Under the pieces are notes generated by a model, which ran no database searches, was not told the DNA's origin, and saw only the letters and a list, made by a program, of their open reading frames with translations. The translations under genes were made by a program, and so were the position numbers. Shown here one piece after another: positions 4,290 through 14,282 of a stretch of 64,000 nt of DNA (position 1 is its first letter; each line of letters begins with the position of its first letter). The stretch is from Tardiphaga sp. (GTDB lineage: Bacteria; Pseudomonadota; Alphaproteobacteria; Rhizobiales; Xanthobacteraceae): contig JASBVG010000025.1 in assembly GCA_030147505.1 (NCBI GenBank), positions 62,001 through 126,000 on the forward strand, given 5' to 3'.

Positions 4290-6353
4290 ATGCAATATGG
4301 CATCGCATTCACGCCCCTCGTCCCGACGCTGGTCCTCTGGATCGGCCTGGCGGCCATCGTCGTCATCGCCGCGCTGCTGCTGCTCGGCCGCGCACGCGGT
4401 GCCGCCATTCGCGTGGCTGCGCTGGTGCTGATCCTGCTCGCGCTCGCCAATCCGTCCTTCACGCGCGAAGAGCGCGAGCCGTTGACCTCGGTCGCCGCTG
4501 TCATCATCGACAAGAGCCCGAGCCAGTCCTTCGGCGATCGCACGAAGCAAACCGAAGACGCCACGAAGCAACTCGTCGATCGGCTCAAGCAGGTCAAAGG
4601 CCTCGAAGTCCGCACCGTCGAAGCCGGTCAGGCCGATGGCGAGACCGATGGCACGAAACTGTTCGGCGCATTGTCATCCGCCCTCTCCGACGTCCCCAGC
4701 GATCGCGTCGCCGGCGCCTTCCTGATCACCGATGGCCGCGTGCACGACATTCCCGCCAATCTCGCCGGCCTCGGCTTCAAGGCGCCGCTGCATGCGCTGA
4801 TCACCGGCGCCAGAGACGAACGCGACCGCCGCATCGCCATCACCGCCGCGCCACGCTTCGGCATCGTCGGGCAATCTCAGAAAGTCACCTTCCGCCTCGA
4901 CGATCAGGGCGTCAGCAACGAACGCGCCCGCGTTACCATCCGCCGCGACGGTGACACCATCGGCGAACGCCAGATGGTGTCGGGCCAGACCATCAGCGTG
5001 GATGTCGATATCAAACATGCCGGCCCGAACATCGTCGAGATCGAGGCCTCGCCCATCGACAACGAGCTCACCCTCGTGAACAACCGCGCCGTGGTCGCCA
5101 TCGACGGTGTGCGCGACAAGCTGCGCGTCCTGCTGGTCTCTGGCGAACCGCATTCCGGCGAGCGCACCTGGCGTAATCTCTTGAAGTCCGATGCCTCCAT
5201 CGACCTCGTACACTTCACGATTCTCCGCCCGCCGGAGAAGCAGGACGGCACGCCAATCAACGAACTGTCGCTGATCGCCTTCCCGACCCGCGAGCTGTTC
5301 CAGCAGAAGATCCACGAATTCCAGCTGATCATCTTCGATCGCTATGCCCGCCAGGGCGTGCTGCCGATCGCCTATTTCGACAATATCGCGCGCTATGTGC
5401 GCAATGGCGGCGCGGTGCTGGTCTCCGCCGGCCCGGACTATGCATCGAATACCAGCATCTGGCGCACGCCGCTCGACTCGGTGCTGCCCGCCGAGCCCGT
5501 CGGCGTCAGCGAAAAGCCGTTCTATGCGCATCTCTCCGATGTCGGCAAACGCCATCCGGTGACCCGCGGCCTCGAAGGCGCGAGCAGCGAACCGCCGAAA
5601 TGGAGCCGCTTCTTCCGCACGGTCGAGACGCGCAACACCACCACGCCGCCCGTCATGACCGGCGCCGATGGCAAGCCACTGCTGCTGCTGTCGCGCTCCG
5701 GCGAAGGCCGCGTCGCGCTGCTGCTGTCCGATCACATCTGGCTGTGGGCCCGCGGCTATGAAGGTGGCGGCCCGCATCTCGATCTGCTGCGCCGTATGTC
5801 GCATTGGCTGATGAAGCAGCCGGATCTCGAAGAGGAATCACTGAAGCTGCAGACCCAGGCCAAGGATCTGGTCGTGCTGCGCCAGACCATGGGCGACAAT
5901 GTCAGCCCGGTCACCGTCACCTCGCCCTCGGGCAAGACTCGCGAACTGACGCTGACCGCCGGCGAGCCCGGCCAGTGGCGCGCGACCACGCCGGCGGACG
6001 AACTCGGCCTCTGGCAGGCCACCGACGGCACGCTGAAGGCGCTGATCAATGTCGGCCCGGTCAATCCGAAGGAGTTTTCGGAGGTGACCTCGACCACCGA
6101 CATGCTGAAGCCGCTCGCGCAGGCGAGCGGCGGCGATGCGCGGCGACTCAATGAGGGCGCGGGCATCGAGGTGCCGCGCGTGGTGCCGGTGCGATCGTCC
6201 ACCACCTTCCGCGGCGACGGCTGGATGGGCGTCCACATGCGCGACGCCAGCGTGGTCCGCGGCGTCGGCGTGCTGCCGATGTTTGCCGGTGTGATCGGGC
6301 TGTTGCTGCTGCTCGGCGCATTCGCGGCGACGTGGCTGCGAGAGAGTCGCTAA
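4290..6353 (+). CDS. Conserved membrane protein of the MoxR operon (VWA / GATase1-like)
   Basis: A 687-residue protein, nine bases after the previous gene with AGGAG before its ATG, hence the last gene of the moxR operon. Two N-terminal hydrophobic helices (about residues 10-55) precede an extracytoplasmic region beginning VAAVIIDKSPSQSF, which resembles a VWA first strand. The mid-region (QLIIFDRYARQGVLPIAYFDN and NGGAVLVSAGPDY) resembles the class I glutamine amidotransferase fold without a visible catalytic Cys. A single membrane helix (residues ~660-680) ends in WLRESR. It probably forms a membrane complex with the preceding DUF4159 protein. No enzymatic role can be assigned. Confidence 0.85.
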   Translation: MQYGIAFTPLVPTLVLWIGLAAIVVIAALLLLGRARGAAIRVAALVLILLALANPSFTREEREPLTSVAAVIIDKSPSQSFGDRTKQTEDATKQLVDRLKQVKGLEVRTVEAGQADGETDGTKLFGALSSALSDVPSDRVAGAFLITDGRVHDIPANLAGLGFKAPLHALITGARDERDRRIAITAAPRFGIVGQSQKVTFRLDDQGVSNERARVTIRRDGDTIGERQMVSGQTISVDVDIKHAGPNIVEIEASPIDNELTLVNNRAVVAIDGVRDKLRVLLVSGEPHSGERTWRNLLKSDASIDLVHFTILRPPEKQDGTPINELSLIAFPTRELFQQKIHEFQLIIFDRYARQGVLPIAYFDNIARYVRNGGAVLVSAGPDYASNTSIWRTPLDSVLPAEPVGVSEKPFYAHLSDVGKRHPVTRGLEGASSEPPKWSRFFRTVETRNTTTPPVMTGADGKPLLLLSRSGEGRVALLLSDHIWLWARGYEGGGPHLDLLRRMSHWLMKQPDLEEESLKLQTQAKDLVVLRQTMGDNVSPVTVTSPSGKTRELTLTAGEPGQWRATTPADELGLWQATDGTLKALINVGPVNPKEFSEVTSTTDMLKPLAQASGGDARRLNEGAGIEVPRVVPVRSSTTFRGDGWMGVHMRDASVVRGVGVLPMFAGVIGLLLLLGAFAATWLRESR

Positions 6354-6356
6354 CCT

Positions 6357-6446
6357 GTAGCCTGCATGGAGCGTAGCGTAATGCAGGGACCGGAGAACCA
6401 ATTGAAACGCTGGTCCCCGGATTACGCTGCGCTCCATCCGGGCTAC
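6357..6446. repeat. Palindromic intergenic repeat, copy 1 (GTAGCC...GGCTAC family)
   Basis: An imperfect inverted repeat whose right arm, 6415-6446, contains GGATTACGCTGCGCTCCATC and ends in GGCTAC. The left arm begins GTAGCC and contains GGAGCGTAGCGTAAT. The right arm recurs at 51868-51899 with one visible mismatch. It lies just after a stop codon and carries no ORF. It is a family-typical dispersed palindrome, likely transcribed as a hairpin. Confidence 0.8.
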
Positions 6447-6511
6447 GGGGCCGGAGCGTTACCCAAATCCCACAGCCCACGACCCTCTCGCCTTCGACAC
6501 ACCCCCACCCG

Positions 6512-6555
6512 TTGACACCACGCCCCTCACCGCGCGATGTTATATTATAACATCG
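6512..6555 (+). promoter_or_regulatory. Promoter -35 box and Zur-box-like operator
   Basis: A perfect TTGACA at 6512-6517 is followed by a 21-bp perfect palindrome at 6535-6555: two 10-bp arms (CGATGTTATA / TATAACATCG) around a central T. The core TGTTATA-N-TATAACA matches what I know of alphaproteobacterial Zur operators. It covers the position expected for the -10 box, so a bound repressor would block RNA polymerase. It lies 46 bases before the ATG of the DUF2946 gene and upstream of a ZnuD-like receptor. Assignment to Zur is inference from sequence and context. Confidence 0.75.
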
Positions 6556-6601
6556 GTATTGGCTGACCTCTCCGCCATCCGATGTCGGGGCGCCTTTGGG
6601 C

Positions 6602-6967
6602 ATGAAGTGGTTTCGAGCAAATATCAGGCAGGGAGCAAAGCTGGCGCTGTTCGCGTTGGTTGTGCAGTTCGTCCTGTCGCTCGGCCATATGCATATCGAC
6701 CGAGCCCATGCCATTGCGGCCGGCCCGCCCGTCGCCGCCATGCAAATGCAGGCAGATCACGACAGCGATCACCATGAGCATCGCGCCACCGATCCTTGCT
6801 GTATATGCGCCGTCATGGCGATGGCCGCGACGGCTTTGTTCTCAAAGCCACCCGCGCTGCAATTGCTGCAAGCGGTGGAGTTCGTCTATCGGCTGACACG
6901 TGCCGAATTCGACCATCTCACGGCCATCAGCGGCGCGCAGCAACCACGCGGCCCTCCCGCCTCCTGA
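6602..6967 (+). CDS. DUF2946 family small His/Cys-rich protein
   Basis: A 121-residue protein with an N-terminal hydrophobic helix (LALFALVVQFVLSL, residues ~14-28) that may be a signal or anchor. A metal-binding-looking stretch follows: DHDSDHHEH at residues 52-60 and CCIC at 66-69. A second hydrophobic patch follows. DUF2946 proteins often occur beside metal-related TonB receptors. I chose the ATG at 6602 rather than the TTG two codons earlier. The ribosome binding site is weak. The gene sits between a Zur-box-like operator and a ZnuD-like receptor, suggesting a role in zinc handling in the periplasm or inner membrane. No function has been shown that I know of. Confidence 0.8.
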   Translation: MKWFRANIRQGAKLALFALVVQFVLSLGHMHIDRAHAIAAGPPVAAMQMQADHDSDHHEHRATDPCCICAVMAMAATALFSKPPALQLLQAVEFVYRLTRAEFDHLTAISGAQQPRGPPAS

Positions 6968-7083
6968 CTTCACCAGCGACCACCGTCGCCACGACTCCGT
7001 CGTGGCGGTGCATCCGAAGTGAAATTTGCATCACCGCAAGTGCCGGCGACGTCGCGATATCCGCGCGGCCGGTGAAGTCAGGA
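6962..7083 (+). other. Inverted repeat joining a stop codon to the next ribosome binding site
   Basis: A 13-bp perfect inverted repeat: TCCTGACTTCACC at 6962-6974 and its complement at 7071-7083. The left arm contains the stop codon of the DUF2946 gene (6965-6967). The right arm contains the AGGA ribosome binding site of the TonB receptor gene. A smaller perfect hairpin (CGCCACGAC / GTCGTGGCG, loop TCC) is nested at 6987-7007. In mRNA this could hide the receptor's ribosome binding site until ribosomes reach the upstream stop. The regulatory role is inference. Confidence 0.6.
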
Positions 7084-7090
7084 CCACTCC

Positions 7091-9442
7091 ATGCCCATCT
7101 CATTCAAGCGCGCGCTCCTGCTCGGCTCATCCGCCATTATCGGATGGAGCAGCCTCCCGTCATTCGCATCCGCGCAGACCCAGCTTCCCGCCGTGGAAGT
7201 GACTGCGCCAAGCCCGATCGTGCGCCGCAAGCCGGCCGCCCATCCGCAAGGCCACACCCACGTGACCCGCACCGCGCCAAACCGGACACAGGTGCCGGTG
7301 GAAGCCGAACCCATCGCCTCCAGCGCGCCGCCGCAAGGCGTGCTGCCCGTCGTCACCGATCAGTTTGCCACGGTCACCGTGGTGCCGAATGAGGAAATCC
7401 GTCGCTCCGGTGCCAATACGCTTGGCGATCTCCTCGCCAACAAACCGGGCATCACCGCCTCCGGCTATGCGCCGGGCGCTTCCAGCCGCCCGATCATTCG
7501 CGGCCTCGACGTCAACCGCGTCGGCATTGTCGAGAACGGCATTTCGAGCGGCGGCGCGTCCGATCTTGGCGAGGATCATTTCGTCCCGGTCGATCCGTTC
7601 GCGGCCAACCAGGTCGAGGTGATCCGCGGTCCGGCAACGCTGCGCTACGGCTCGCAGTCGATCGGCGGCGTGGTCTCGGCCTCCAACAACCGCATTCCCG
7701 ACGCGCTGCCGAACTGCGCCGTGGCGGCGCCGTTCGTGAGCTATGGCCTGCCCGCCAAGGCGCCGGCTGCCGGCCTCGCCGCGCCGGGCTGCATGAATGC
7801 AGAAGTGCGTACCTCGATCAATTCGGCCACGCGCGGCGTCGATGGCGGCATCCTGCTCGATGCCGGCGGCGGCAATGTCGCCGTGCATGCCGATGTCTAT
7901 GGCAACAAGGCCGGCGACTACAATGTCCCGTCCTATCCCTATGCCGAGCCCGGCATCGCCTTCAACGGCCGGCAGGGCAACACCGCAATGCAAAGCGGCG
8001 GCGCGTCGCTCGGCGGCTCCTACTTCTTCGACGGTGGCTATATCGGCGCGGCGATCACGCACAACCGCGCGAATTACGGCATTCCCGGTGTCGAAGGTGC
8101 GGAGCAGCAGACGCGCATCGTTGGCGAGCAAACCAAGGTCACCATGAAGGGCGAGTATCGGCCGGACGCCGCGGCCATCGAGGCGATCCGCTTCTGGGCC
8201 GGCGCGACCGACTACAAGCATGACGAGATCGGGCTGGAGGAAGGCGGCACCGGTGCACCGCATGTGCACCAGACCTTCACCAACAAGGAACAGGAAGGCC
8301 GCGTCGAAGTGCAGATGATGCCCTTCAATGCCGGCTTCGCTGCTGTCACCACCGCCTTCGGCATCCAGGCCAGCCATCAGGAATTGACGGCGCCGAGCCC
8401 CGAAGGCATCGGCACCCCGCTCAACGGCCTGTTCGATCCCAACAAGAACACCAAGGTCGCCGGCTATGTGTTCAACGAGCTGAAATTCACCGACTGGACG
8501 CGCGCACAGATCGCCGGCCGTGTCGAGCATGTGGAATTGTCGGGCTCGGCGCCGTCGTTCATACCCACCGAGTTCGACACCGATGCTGACCCGACCTCGG
8601 TCGGCCCGGCGATCGGCATCAACAAGTCCTTCACGCCGAAGAGCGGCAGCATCGGCCTGATCCAGGACCTGCCCTGGGGCGGCCTCTCGGCCAGCGTCAC
8701 CGCGCAATACACAGAGCGCGCGCCGAAGCCCGCCGAGCTGTTTTCACGCGGTGGCCATGACGCCACCGGCACTTTCGACATCGGCAATCCCAATCTCGGA
8801 ATCGAGACGGCGAAGTCGGTGGAAGTCGGCCTGCGCCGGGCGGCCGGCCCGGTGCGGTTCGAACTCACCGGCTACTACACGCAATTCAACGGCTTCATCT
8901 ATCGCGCCCTCACCGGTAATACCTGCTCCGGCAGTGCCTGCATCGTCGGCGCGGGAGAGGAGCTGAACCAGGCGATCTATTCGCAGCGTGACGCCACCTT
9001 CCGCGGCGGTGAATTCCAGACCCAGATCGACGTTACGAAGCTCGGCAGCGGCATGTTCGGTGTCGAGGCCCAGGCTGATGTGGTCCGCGCCACCTTCTCC
9101 GACGGCAGCAATGTGCCGCGCATCCCGCCGGTGCGCGCCGGCGGCGGCCTGTTCTGGCGCGATGCGAACTGGTTCGCCCGCATCAACGTGCTGCATGCCT
9201 TCGCGCAGAACGACATCGCAGCGATCGCCGAGACGCCGACCGACGGCTACAACCTGCTGAAGGCTGAAATCAGCTACAAGACGCTGCTCGATCCGCGCAT
9301 CTATGGGGCGAAGGAAATGACGGTGGGCCTCGTCGGCAACAACCTGCTCAACGAGAACATCCGTTACTCGGTGTCCTACAACAAGGACAACGTGCTTCAG
9401 CCCGGCATGAATGTGCGGGCTTTTGCAACTGTGAAGTTCTGA
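7091..9442 (+). CDS. TonB-dependent outer-membrane receptor, ZnuD-like
   Basis: A 783-residue outer-membrane receptor. A signal peptide ends near SFASAQ, followed by a TonB-box-like PAVEVTAPSP. A linker containing HPQGHTH precedes the plug domain (VPNEEIRRSGANTLGDLLANKPGI, RPIIRGLDVNRVGI, then QVEVIRGPATLRYGS), and a beta-barrel runs to the C-terminal RAFATVKF ending in F. Receptors with this plug type (ZnuD / HMA-like) import zinc or haem. An external loop with EGGTGAPHVHQTF is His-containing. The gene has AGGA six bases before the ATG and is 123 bases downstream of the DUF2946 gene under the same Zur-box-like site, which favours zinc. The substrate is inferred. Confidence 0.88.
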   Translation: MPISFKRALLLGSSAIIGWSSLPSFASAQTQLPAVEVTAPSPIVRRKPAAHPQGHTHVTRTAPNRTQVPVEAEPIASSAPPQGVLPVVTDQFATVTVVPNEEIRRSGANTLGDLLANKPGITASGYAPGASSRPIIRGLDVNRVGIVENGISSGGASDLGEDHFVPVDPFAANQVEVIRGPATLRYGSQSIGGVVSASNNRIPDALPNCAVAAPFVSYGLPAKAPAAGLAAPGCMNAEVRTSINSATRGVDGGILLDAGGGNVAVHADVYGNKAGDYNVPSYPYAEPGIAFNGRQGNTAMQSGGASLGGSYFFDGGYIGAAITHNRANYGIPGVEGAEQQTRIVGEQTKVTMKGEYRPDAAAIEAIRFWAGATDYKHDEIGLEEGGTGAPHVHQTFTNKEQEGRVEVQMMPFNAGFAAVTTAFGIQASHQELTAPSPEGIGTPLNGLFDPNKNTKVAGYVFNELKFTDWTRAQIAGRVEHVELSGSAPSFIPTEFDTDADPTSVGPAIGINKSFTPKSGSIGLIQDLPWGGLSASVTAQYTERAPKPAELFSRGGHDATGTFDIGNPNLGIETAKSVEVGLRRAAGPVRFELTGYYTQFNGFIYRALTGNTCSGSACIVGAGEELNQAIYSQRDATFRGGEFQTQIDVTKLGSGMFGVEAQADVVRATFSDGSNVPRIPPVRAGGGLFWRDANWFARINVLHAFAQNDIAAIAETPTDGYNLLKAEISYKTLLDPRIYGAKEMTVGLVGNNLLNENIRYSVSYNKDNVLQPGMNVRAFATVKF

Positions 9443-9462
9443 CGTTACGCGCTCTAACTGTC

Positions 9463-9556
9463 GTTACCCGCGAAAGCGGGTAACCCAGCAGACACAGGTA
9501 CTGGCGATACGTTTCGTCGATGTCGAGTGCTGGATCGCCCGGTCGAGCCGGGCGAT
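9463..9556. repeat. Double-hairpin intergenic repeat
   Basis: Two perfect stem-loops lie between convergent genes. The first is GTTACCCGC / GCGGGTAAC at 9463-9484 with a GAAA loop. The second is ATCGCCCGG / CCGGGCGAT at 9534-9556. No poly-T tract follows on either strand, so they resemble a dispersed palindromic element more than a standard terminator, although they may still act as one for both flanking genes. Confidence 0.65.
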
Positions 9557-9575
9557 GAGAGTGGGAGTGAGGAAG

Positions 9576-10088
9576 TTACTTCGCTGCGTTCCAGTCCGGC
9601 CGCACGGCGCCGGCGATTCCGTCCGCGGCGCCATCCACCAGTTCGAGCACCAGCAAACGTTTCTGGTCAACCGGTCCGGGCATGGTCACATTGCCCTTCG
9701 GAATCGCCTTGAAACCGACCCGGCTGTAATAGGGCTCATCGCCCACCAGCACGATCAGTCGGTGCCCCTTGGCACGCGCATCATGGATCGCGCGATCCAG
9801 AAGCTTGCGGCCGACGCCGCGGCTGCGGAACGGCGGCTCCACCGTGAGAGGGCCGAGCAGCAAGGCCGGCGTGTCGCCGACACAGATCGGCAATTGCCTG
9901 ATCGATCCTACCAGCAACGTGCCAATGCGCGCCGTGAAGGACAGATCGAGCAGATGGCTCACATGCTCGCGCAGGCGATAGGCCGACAGCACGAAACGGC
10001 CGGGGCCGAAGGTGCGGGCCACCAGCCGTTCTATGGGCTGGGCGTCATTGGCGGTTTCCGCCGCGATGATCAGGTCGAGGTCACTCAT
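9576..10088 (-). CDS. GNAT family N-acetyltransferase (YhbS-like)
   Basis: A 170-residue GNAT protein. The acetyl-CoA binding motif is GPLTVEPPFRSRGVGRKLLD (about residues 78-97, with R/Q-x-x-G-x-G/A as RSRGVG). It is followed by VLVGDEPYYSRVGFKAIPKG, a hallmark of YhbS-type acetyltransferases. It likely transfers acetyl groups to a small molecule or protein; the substrate is unknown. It ends opposite the receptor gene with the double-hairpin repeat between them. The Nudix gene lies 51 bases upstream on the same strand, so the two may be co-transcribed. Confidence 0.85.
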   Translation of the reverse strand: MSDLDLIIAAETANDAQPIERLVARTFGPGRFVLSAYRLREHVSHLLDLSFTARIGTLLVGSIRQLPICVGDTPALLLGPLTVEPPFRSRGVGRKLLDRAIHDARAKGHRLIVLVGDEPYYSRVGFKAIPKGNVTMPGPVDQKRLLVLELVDGAADGIAGAVRPDWNAAK

Positions 10089-12785: not shown

Positions 12786-12831
12786 GATGTAACATCACTA
12801 CTTGTCACAAATGTCATAATGTAACAATTGT
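12786..12831 (+). promoter_or_regulatory. Operator-like cluster of short palindromes before the ScfR-family gene
   Basis: Three short palindromes occur in 46 bases ending just before the start codon: GATGT-A-ACATC (12786-12796), TTGT-C-ACAA (12802-12810) and ACAATTGT (12824-12831). The heptamer TGTAACA occurs at 12788-12794 and again at 12820-12826, exactly 32 bases apart (about three helical turns). The region is AT-rich against a GC-rich background. This suggests autoregulation by the downstream HTH protein. No binding data exist here. Confidence 0.45.
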
Positions 12832-12836
12832 AAATC

Positions 12837-14282
12837 ATGGCAACCGAAACCAACAAGAAGCTATTCGTGGGGCCCCGTTTTCGCCGGATTCGGCAGCAAC
12901 TCGGGTTGTCGCAGACCCAGATGGCCGAGGGGCTCGGCATCTCGCCTAGCTACATTAATCTCATCGAACGCAACCAGCGGCCTGTGACGGCGCAGCTTTT
13001 GCTGCGGCTAGCCGAGACCTACGATCTCGACCTGCGCGATCTCGCGACGGCGGATGAGGACCGCTTCTTCGCCGAGCTGAACGAGATTTTCTCCGATCCG
13101 CTGTTCCGCCAGATCGATCTGCCGAAACAGGAGCTGCGTGATCTCGCGGAGCTGTGTCCGGGCGTGACGCATTCGCTGCAGCGACTTTACGCGGCTTACA
13201 CCGAAGCGCGGCGCGGTGAGACCATGGTGGCGGCGCAGATGGCCGATCGTCACGACGGCGCGTCCTATGAGGGCAACCCGATCGAGCGGGTGCGCGATCT
13301 GATCGAAGCCAACCGGAATTACTTTCCGGAGCTGGAAACTGCAGCGGAGACGGTGCGTGATGAGATCAATGTGGCGTCACAGGATCTCTTCGCTGCGCTG
13401 AGCACGCGGCTCCGTGAGAAGTATTCAATCGTCACGCGCATCATGCCGGTGGATGTGATGCGCGAAACGCTGCGGCGGTTCGACCGGCATCGGCGACAAT
13501 TGCTGATCTCCGAAATGGTGGACGCGCCCGGTCGCGCGTTCCAGGCTGCCTTTCAGATCGGGCTGGTCGAGTGCTCGTCGAATTTCGAAAGCATCATCGG
13601 CCGCGCCGGCCCGCTTGCCGATACGCAGCGACGACTCTACCGCATCACGCTCGCGAATTACTTCGCCGCTGCCGTGTTGATGCCCTACGCAGCCTTTCAT
13701 GCGGCCGCGGAAGCACTGAGCTACGACCTGCAGGTGCTGGGCCAGCGCTTCAATGTCGGCTTCGAGCAGATCTGCCATCGACTCACCACGCTGCAGCGCC
13801 CCAATGCGCGCGGCGTGCCGTTCTTCATGCTGCGCGTGGACAATGCCGGCAATGTCTCGAAGCGCTTTTCGTCAGGCACATTCCCGTTCTCGAAGTTCGG
13901 CGGCACCTGTCCGCTGTGGAATGTGCATTCCACCTTCGATACGCCGGACCGCCTGCTGCAGCAGGTCATCGAACTCCCCGATGGCAATCGCTATTTTTCC
14001 ATCGCGCAAACGCTGCGCCGCCCGCCTGCACCGCACCCGCATCCCCAGCCGCGCTTCGCCATCGGCCTCGGCTGCGAGATCCGTCATGCGAGCAAGCTGG
14101 TCTATTCGGCGGGCCTCGACCTGGAAAAGATCGAGGGTACGCCGATCGGCGTGAACTGCCGGCTGTGTGAGCGCGAAAACTGCAGCCAGCGCGCCGAGCC
14201 GCCGATCACGCGGACACTCATTCTCGACGAGAACACGCGGCGCGTCTCTTCCTTTGCCTTCAGCAATGCGCGGGAGATCTAG
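12837..14282 (+). CDS. XRE-family short-chain fatty acyl transcriptional regulator (ScfR/PrpR-like)
   Basis: A 481-residue regulator. An N-terminal XRE helix-turn-helix (FRRIRQQLGLSQTQMAEGLG, then ISPSYINLIERNQRPVT, residues ~15-55) precedes a long DUF955-like/DUF2083 region. The C-terminus has conserved cysteines at about 413, 441, 444 and 449, the last three as CRLCERENC. Relatives regulate the glyoxylate, propionate and methylcitrate pathways in response to short acyl-CoAs. The mycobacterial relative PrpR is reported to carry an iron-sulfur cluster, so these cysteines may bind one. No target genes of that pathway adjoin it in this window. Confidence 0.87.
   Translation: MATETNKKLFVGPRFRRIRQQLGLSQTQMAEGLGISPSYINLIERNQRPVTAQLLLRLAETYDLDLRDLATADEDRFFAELNEIFSDPLFRQIDLPKQELRDLAELCPGVTHSLQRLYAAYTEARRGETMVAAQMADRHDGASYEGNPIERVRDLIEANRNYFPELETAAETVRDEINVASQDLFAALSTRLREKYSIVTRIMPVDVMRETLRRFDRHRRQLLISEMVDAPGRAFQAAFQIGLVECSSNFESIIGRAGPLADTQRRLYRITLANYFAAAVLMPYAAFHAAAEALSYDLQVLGQRFNVGFEQICHRLTTLQRPNARGVPFFMLRVDNAGNVSKRFSSGTFPFSKFGGTCPLWNVHSTFDTPDRLLQQVIELPDGNRYFSIAQTLRRPPAPHPHPQPRFAIGLGCEIRHASKLVYSAGLDLEKIEGTPIGVNCRLCERENCSQRAEPPITRTLILDENTRRVSSFAFSNAREI

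Follow-up and report, generated by a model that had tools for sequence, protein, structure and literature searches.

The locus described here lies in a 64,000-nucleotide (nt) stretch of Tardiphaga sp. DNA (assembly GCA_030147505.1, contig JASBVG010000025.1, positions 62,001 to 126,000), referred to below as the window, and consists of a promoter overlapped by a candidate Zur operator, a small gene of the DUF2946 family and a gene for a ZnuD-like TonB-dependent receptor. Comparison with related loci and published systems suggests that the DUF2946 gene probably encodes an arrest peptide of the CruR/CutF kind adapted to zinc, which together with Zur at the promoter would place the zinc receptor under two layers of control. 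The features are as follows, with SD standing for Shine-Dalgarno sequence and ORF for open reading frame:

6512..6517, + strand: -35 element TTGACA, recognised by sequence.
6535..6555, no strand: Zur-type operator, a 21-bp palindrome that overlaps the -10, kept in relatives, with a second perfect core before aztAB-like genes.
6602..6967, + strand: DUF2946 leader ORF of 121 amino acids, CruR/CutF-like by profile match and alignment, with a signal-peptide-like N-terminus by eye.
6683..6694, + strand: GHMH, a GHxH motif typical of box-linked leaders.
6797..6808, + strand: CCIC, a CxxC motif whose outer Cys residues are both invariant in 16/16 sequences.
6947..6958, + strand: RGPP motif, separated from the stop by exactly two codons.
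6962..6974, + strand: anti-SD arm TCCTGACTTCACC, covering the last codon, the stop and the following bases, found by complementarity.
7071..7083, + strand: receptor SD arm GGTGAAGTCAGGA, complementary to the anti-SD arm over all 13 bases, found by complementarity and folding.
7091..9442, + strand: ZnuD-like TonB-dependent receptor of 783 amino acids, with putative zinc ligands D162, H163, E379 and H556, from alignment and fold search.

The palindrome at 6535-6555 (CGATGTTATATTATAACATCG) lies 17 nt downstream of TTGACA, and its core (ATGTTATANTATAACAT, 6537-6553, 0 mismatches) 19 nt past the end of that element, a distance that places the box across the -10 position. With at most 3 mismatches allowed, 100 shuffles of the window sequence give an expectation of 0.00 core matches, against two present, the perfect core and, at 12811-12827, a weak site with 3 mismatches; the weak site stands just ahead of an ORF at 12837 whose product looks by eye like an XRE-type regulator. 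Among 198 genomes of the Bradyrhizobium family searched, the leader protein was matched in 88, and 99 fetched stretches together with the window gave 100 loci, 96 of which contain an ORF with the CxxC...RxPP pattern, the other four being among the weaker matches. Receptors were called by tblastn (90/96; an earlier detection by regular expression, with 59/96, was too strict), and a box was counted if it lay no more than 300 nt upstream of the leader and had 3 mismatches or fewer. Receptor and box were both found at 83 of the 96 leader loci, window included. Seven have a receptor without a box, including two second leaders of tandem operons and cases with 4 mismatches, 5 mismatches or 174 nt upstream only, two have a box without a receptor (one box being 288 nt away), and four have neither (one of these being a 1,300-base stretch). 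Against this, none of 188 coding windows and 96 shuffled upstream regions scored below 6 mismatches. The promoter geometry recurs as well: TTGAC was present no more than 45 nt upstream of the box at 79 of 82 scorable loci, window included, with a gap from the -35 to the core of 18-19 nt in 56 and most commonly of 19 nt (35), and the box starts 40-79 nt ahead of the leader at 75 of the 83 loci with box and receptor.

The assembly searched (6.2 Mb, 134 contigs, 94.9% complete) holds the perfect core at two places, the window locus and C1:11098, where the downstream genes, on the other strand, resemble the zinc ABC transporter AztA/AztB (AztA-like, 218.9 bits against a cut-off of 220; AztB-like, 152.9 bits against 280, on a fragment truncated where the locus ends). 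The operator resembles the known Zur boxes of Caulobacter as given in PMC4176598, and it is common to these other zinc-uptake-like genes of the genome. Three Fur-family proteins were matched, one Fur-like, one Irr above cut-off, and a third (L100) whose best family is Zur (NF008646) at 74.6 bits, below the cut-off of 167. We hold with high confidence that the palindrome is a Zur operator and that its promoter is controlled by Zur, the binding of Zur to 6535-6555 being predicted from the form and distribution of the box. The first-pass annotation, which had placed a Zur-type palindrome over the -10 of a TTGACA promoter, is upheld on this point by the coordinates and by conservation: the genome scan that it proposed yields one other perfect core, ahead of aztA/aztB-like genes, and the orthologous loci, where it named absence of the palindrome as telling against its view, mostly carry a box of this kind. 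A second DUF2946 leader of the assembly (L001, 1441-1839; G000:C1:24610-24936) is some 13.5 kb away from the box preceding the aztAB-like genes; it ends in RARAPPQLS, has an early Cys (FELCLTHPD), stands directly before another TonB receptor without a Zur box, and looks like the copper type.

The best solved relative of the receptor by sequence is ZnuD (2.3e-42), and a fold search with the predicted model returned ZnuD for the top four chains (three entries), at 21-24% identity in structural alignment; the AlphaFold model, with a mean predicted local distance difference test score of 60.3 and a poor plug, was used for this fold search only. The high-affinity zinc ligands reported for ZnuD, Asp99, His100, Glu340 and His499 (PMC4557270), align to D162, H163, E379 and H556 of the receptor, positions that are invariant in 16/16 aligned receptors and are all present in 69 of the 81 receptors at box-bearing leader loci. 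Against the ZnuD model NF038289 the receptor scores 221.1 bits, far under the cut-off of 950, and it is therefore named ZnuD-like and not ZnuD. A second receptor type follows the same box and leader at L056, L064, L081 and L090, among others.

The leader ORF passes the DUF2946 profile PF11162 narrowly (24.4 bits; gathering cut-off 23.7), contains the Asp/His cluster DHDSDHHEH and CCIC, and ends in RGPPAS-stop. As in CruR, a CxxC (here CCIC) and a RAPP-like motif (here RGPP) are combined at a set spacing, 50 in the window, in the first gene of the unit, and a TonB receptor comes next, here 123 nt past the stop; as in CutF, a short protein (here 121 amino acids) with a putative export signal (by eye) and a Pro-rich stretch within its last 15 residues (here RGPPAS) precedes a predicted SD-hiding stem-loop. 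The CxxC-to-RxPP spacing is 50 in 78 of the 83 leaders with box and receptor, the tail after RxPP is two residues long in 80, and the motif itself is RAPP in 70 and RGPP in 13. Among the three leaders with longer tails, L215 and L222 keep CCTGA near its usual distance from RxPP, read in a different frame, so that it does not form the stop (an additional CCTGA lies at the actual stop of L222), and L216 has lost it; the retention of CCTGA out of frame in L215 and L222 suggests that the RNA, and not the peptide end alone, is conserved. A class-wide DUF2946 search gave 74 places in 54 of 240 genomes, from which the best 30 of the 74 were examined, 24 had a CxxC/RxPP ORF and 23 were compared. No box with fewer than 6 mismatches was found at these 24 loci, and in the 23 proteins the tail varies from 1 to 9 residues, a tail of two occurring in 3 only. 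The tandem operons L047/L065, L055/L066 and L071/L072 have a second leader before the second receptor, the box being missing at the second leader in 2/3, and receptor-less leaders of this kind stand before DUF1007 and NicO (L074) or before HlyD-type efflux genes (L086, L093 and L238).

The stop codon indicates how such a leader would act. Across the 123-nt intergenic region of the window, the last codon and stop, TCC TGA, are complementary to TCAGGA at the receptor SD, and the stem has a fold z-score of -2.95, with 0/200 shuffles equally stable; Rfam gave no match at gathering score in 6300-9700. The codons are biased: at the 54 loci compared, the terminal Ser codon is TCC in 41/41, where TCC accounts for only 17% of Ser codons across the receptor ORFs, and TGA serves as stop in 53/54. 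TCAGGA is found downstream of the leader stop at 66/83 loci. Among 80 named receptor relatives, of which 78 were scorable, a plain string search found TCAGGA in 24/35 with a leader vs 0/39 leader-less; a box is present ahead of 17 of the 39 leader-less receptors at up to 3 mismatches and of 26 at up to 4. The exact complement of the stop hexamer occurs downstream in 50/83, compared with a mean of 7.8 and a maximum of 25 for hexamers at distant offsets; a secondary peak of this control at about -21 to -17 (up to 25/83) falls on the RAPP region, whose codons are G+C-rich. The minimum-energy structure pairs the SD within 9 nt of the stop at 48/57 loci vs 50/1140 shuffles, and by a looser measure (within 35 nt of the stop) at 52/56, the assembly's own copper-type locus included; extension of the inner helix also exceeds permutation, 18/5000 being equally good (49 loci). 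When the bases under a ribosome stalled on the first Pro (its footprint) were blocked in the folds, mean SD openness rose from 0.23 to 0.49 over 57 loci, increasing by more than 0.1 in 43 and decreasing by more than 0.1 in 2. In the window, the eight bases tested are all closed when the RNA is free, and six open to 0.39-0.87 with the footprint blocked. Collectively, the RGPP-xx-stop end, the near-fixed CxxC-RxPP spacing, the TCC-TGA bias, the SD pairing and the leaders within tandem operons speak for a leader peptide acting in cis, which very probably serves as a translational switch of the receptor.

These results bear on the remainder of the first-pass annotation. Its description of a small His/Cys-rich DUF2946 protein (PF11162, DHDSDHHEH, CCIC) followed by a ZnuD-like receptor agrees with the profile score and with the four ZnuD ligands, and the co-occurrence check that it suggested found a receptor at 90/96 leader loci and the ligands in 69/81 box-linked receptors. 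The palindrome, gene order and residues that it listed stand, and it overlooked the RGPP end, the stop/SD pairing and the published roles of DUF2946 proteins. The leader start at TTG 6596 gives way to ATG 6602, the likeliest start by the conserved M-x-W-x-R; the annotation's statement that DUF2946 has no established role is contradicted by the cis regulators CruR (PMC9426467) and CutF (PMC9973294); and its proposal that DUF2946 works in zinc transfer at the outer membrane is unsupported, the features fitting a cis-acting leader peptide.

In the mechanism proposed here, Zur with zinc would occupy the palindrome and block the promoter, and zinc shortage would lift this block. In the second layer, the ribosome would stall at RGPP during synthesis and export of the leader, with the first Pro in the P site and the second in the A site, and would cover TCC-TGA-C at positions +9 to +15 counted from the P site. 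With TCC-TGA-C under the ribosome, its pairing with GTCAGGA would be prevented, so that the SD would be open and the receptor made. Binding of metal by the nascent peptide through GHxH, His/Asp and CxxC would release the stall and let the ribosome depart, after which the anti-SD arm would close the SD and receptor synthesis would stop. Cytoplasmic zinc would then gate transcription, and the nascent exported chain would gate translation of the same receptor. The parts, their geometry, their conservation and the predicted pairing are read directly from the sequences; arrest of the ribosome by the leader, the sign of the metal response, zinc as the metal and Zur binding we infer.

The identity of the sensed metal is judged from the ligands of the leader. 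A Cys in the 60 residues preceding CxxC is present in 4/83 box-linked leaders vs 22/23 box-less class-wide proteins (from the best 30 of 74), and [GA]HxH in the same interval in 75/83 vs 2/23. An order-wide search with the leader alignment covered 249 genomes, and 14 places outside the family were fetched; at three of these (L258, L260 and L261) His-bearing leaders precede ZrgA zinc-uptake genes, and at two (L259 and L270) such leaders precede ZnuD-like receptors that share about 44% identity and possess the complete set of four ligands, a 3-mismatch box site being present at L259 and none at L270. With GHxH replacing the extra Cys of other DUF2946 proteins, we lean towards zinc as the metal sensed by the leader. 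An unlikely alternative, and the first to be considered, is a leader that works in the same way but responds, as a nascent chain, to copper (or oxidation) like CruR, with zinc acting through Zur only, in which case low zinc without an excess of copper would turn the receptor on. It would agree with the copper response of the characterised DUF2946 regulators CruR and CutF (PMC9426467, PMC9973294), with the retention of CxxC and with a CxxC-to-R spacing of 48-53 in the 23 box-less class-wide proteins (best 30 of 74), nearly that of the window; the missing extra Cys and the GHxH of most box-linked leaders, the ZnuD-type zinc site in the great majority of downstream receptors and the His-bearing leaders before ZrgA in other families argue against it.

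A second alternative concerns the output of the arrest, which might control Rho-dependent termination in the intergenic region, instead of or besides access to the SD. The 123-nt intergenic region and the precedent of CruR, which acts with Rho, would accommodate this; the stop/SD complementarity, with TCAGGA at 66/83 leader loci vs 0/39 leader-less receptors, stands against it, and we consider it improbable. The first-pass view that the DUF2946 protein is a periplasmic partner binding zinc and handing it to the receptor is very improbable and was rejected as the best reading, since, for all that the protein is His/Asp/Cys-rich, probably exported and beside a receptor in 90/96 leader loci, its mean column identity is 49% vs 71% for the receptor (16 sequences each), the constraint sits on RGPP-xx-stop, on codons and on RNA pairing, tandem operons (L047/L065, L055/L066, L071/L072) have a leader before each receptor, and CutF was detectable only with its signal sequence deleted (PMC9973294).

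Several observations weigh against the zinc-adapted leader switch. Concerning the metal, the three ZrgA-linked leaders have no box by the consensus used (6-7 mismatches); GHxH also occurs in the leaders before HlyD-type efflux genes and NicO (L074, L086, L093) and is hence not specific to zinc; the same leader precedes the second receptor type, without ZnuD ligands, in 11/81 cases with a box and 5/6 without; and CutF has the opposite sign, copper switching the next gene on (PMC9973294). Concerning sampling, the class-wide set is biased towards canonical members, since proteins of the window type score low with the Pfam model, and the 83 loci all come from one bacterial family and are therefore not independent. 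Concerning the RNA, TCAGGA is missing at 17/83 loci with box and receptor and, in the stretch scanned, at 11/35 named leader loci; 9/57 folds are not paired in register; and two G of the SD core in the window remain closed (0.03) even with the footprint blocked. The TCCTGA/TCAGGA core is almost invariant, so that covariation is weak, and native and arm-swapped duplexes separate poorly (-20.7 vs -19.1 kcal/mol, mean cost 1.6 kcal/mol); the codon, offset and shuffle controls were used in its place. From the evidence for and against zinc, Zur control is rated highest, the leader switch close to it, and zinc sensing by the leader clearly lower though still favoured. The most specific form of the proposal, that DUF2946 leaders of the Bradyrhizobium family are zinc-sensing arrest peptides with GHxH, with the extra Cys missing, and with the stop codon itself serving as the anti-SD switch through the held RGPP-stop distance, we regard as evenly balanced.

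Were the two-layer control of the receptor correct, leader-arrest control, so far described for copper in CruR and CutF, would extend to zinc, and a zinc version under Zur would indicate that DUF2946 is a scaffold open to re-tuning from one metal to another. Related zinc-linked leaders would also head zrgA-type operons in other families, and many "DUF2946 hypothetical proteins" would be re-read as regulators and not as transport parts. A zinc leader would allow a direct test of metal-driven ribosome release, and the leader-less related receptors would offer a clean system for asking why a second control layer arose.

Two inverted repeats flank the locus. A perfect one at 9463-9484, past the receptor gene (GTTACCCGC-GAAA-GCGGGTAAC), is a possible terminator or repeat element, and between the upstream gene and the promoter, at 6360-6450, lies an inverted repeat-like stretch, GGAGCGTAGCGTAAT ... 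ATTACGCTGCGCTCC, with one mismatch.

Among known systems, ZnuD of Neisseria meningitidis shares with the window the four zinc ligands, the best sequence and fold match and Zur control, and no leader is mentioned for it in the available text of PMC4557270. The Zur regulon of Caulobacter crescentus has the same form of box (GATGTTATATCATAACAAT at znuK) at TonB receptor genes, some over the -10, with no leader ORF described ahead of znuK/L/M in the portions available (PMC4176598). A Zur-activated efflux operon of Caulobacter starts with the DUF2946 gene CC2720, so that a Zur-DUF2946 link of another kind is already in print, and loss of zur lowers, and does not raise, the expression of the DUF2946 genes CC1775 and CC2720 (PMC4176598). 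The classical RAPP/RGPP arrest peptides (ApdA, ApdP, ApcA, SecM) share the C-terminal RGPP, by which motif alone the window is linked to them; they serve protein localisation (Sec/YidC), and the metal-linked cases in the portions available are copper or unassigned (PMC12992588). According to that 2025 study, a ribosome arrested in vitro on CruR has one Pro codon of the motif in its P site and the other in its A site, and of the RAPP-like motifs RGPP arrests most stably (PMC12992588).

The closest counterparts are CruR and CutF. CruR, encoded in the Bordetella pertussis cruR-bfrG operon, is a copper-responsive DUF2946 leader whose CXXC senses copper (Roy et al., 2022; PMC9426467), and it resembles the window in having CxxC, a C-terminal R-A-P-P and a TonB receptor downstream, with a C-to-R spacing of 49 (C90 to R139) and the receptor after 162 bp, as against 50 and 123 nt in the window. 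Its RAPP is needed for expression of the downstream TonB receptor, and copper triggers Rho termination (PMC9426467); it differs from the window in this copper response and Rho output, in a receptor (BfrG/CrtA) that is not ZnuD-like, and in its motif, which is RGPP in the window. The window would share the sign of CruR, arrest keeping the importer on and metal turning it off. CutF, of the Rhodobacter capsulatus cutFOG operon, controls cutO via a stem-loop hiding the cutO SD (Ozturk et al., 2023; PMC9973294), and has in common with the window an exported DUF2946 leader, a Pro-rich end and the intergenic SD-hiding stem-loop, differing in its CxxxC and in the next gene, a multicopper oxidase (PMC9973294). 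Neither "zinc" nor "Zur" occurs in the main text of PMC9426467 or PMC9973294, nor does "zinc" in that of PMC12992588, and in the open-licence PMC literature no zinc-responsive bacterial arrest peptide appeared in the titles and abstract openings among the matches listed. The window is set apart from CruR and CutF by its Zur box, its ZnuD-like receptor, the ligand set of its leader and the predicted role of its stop codon as an anti-SD element.

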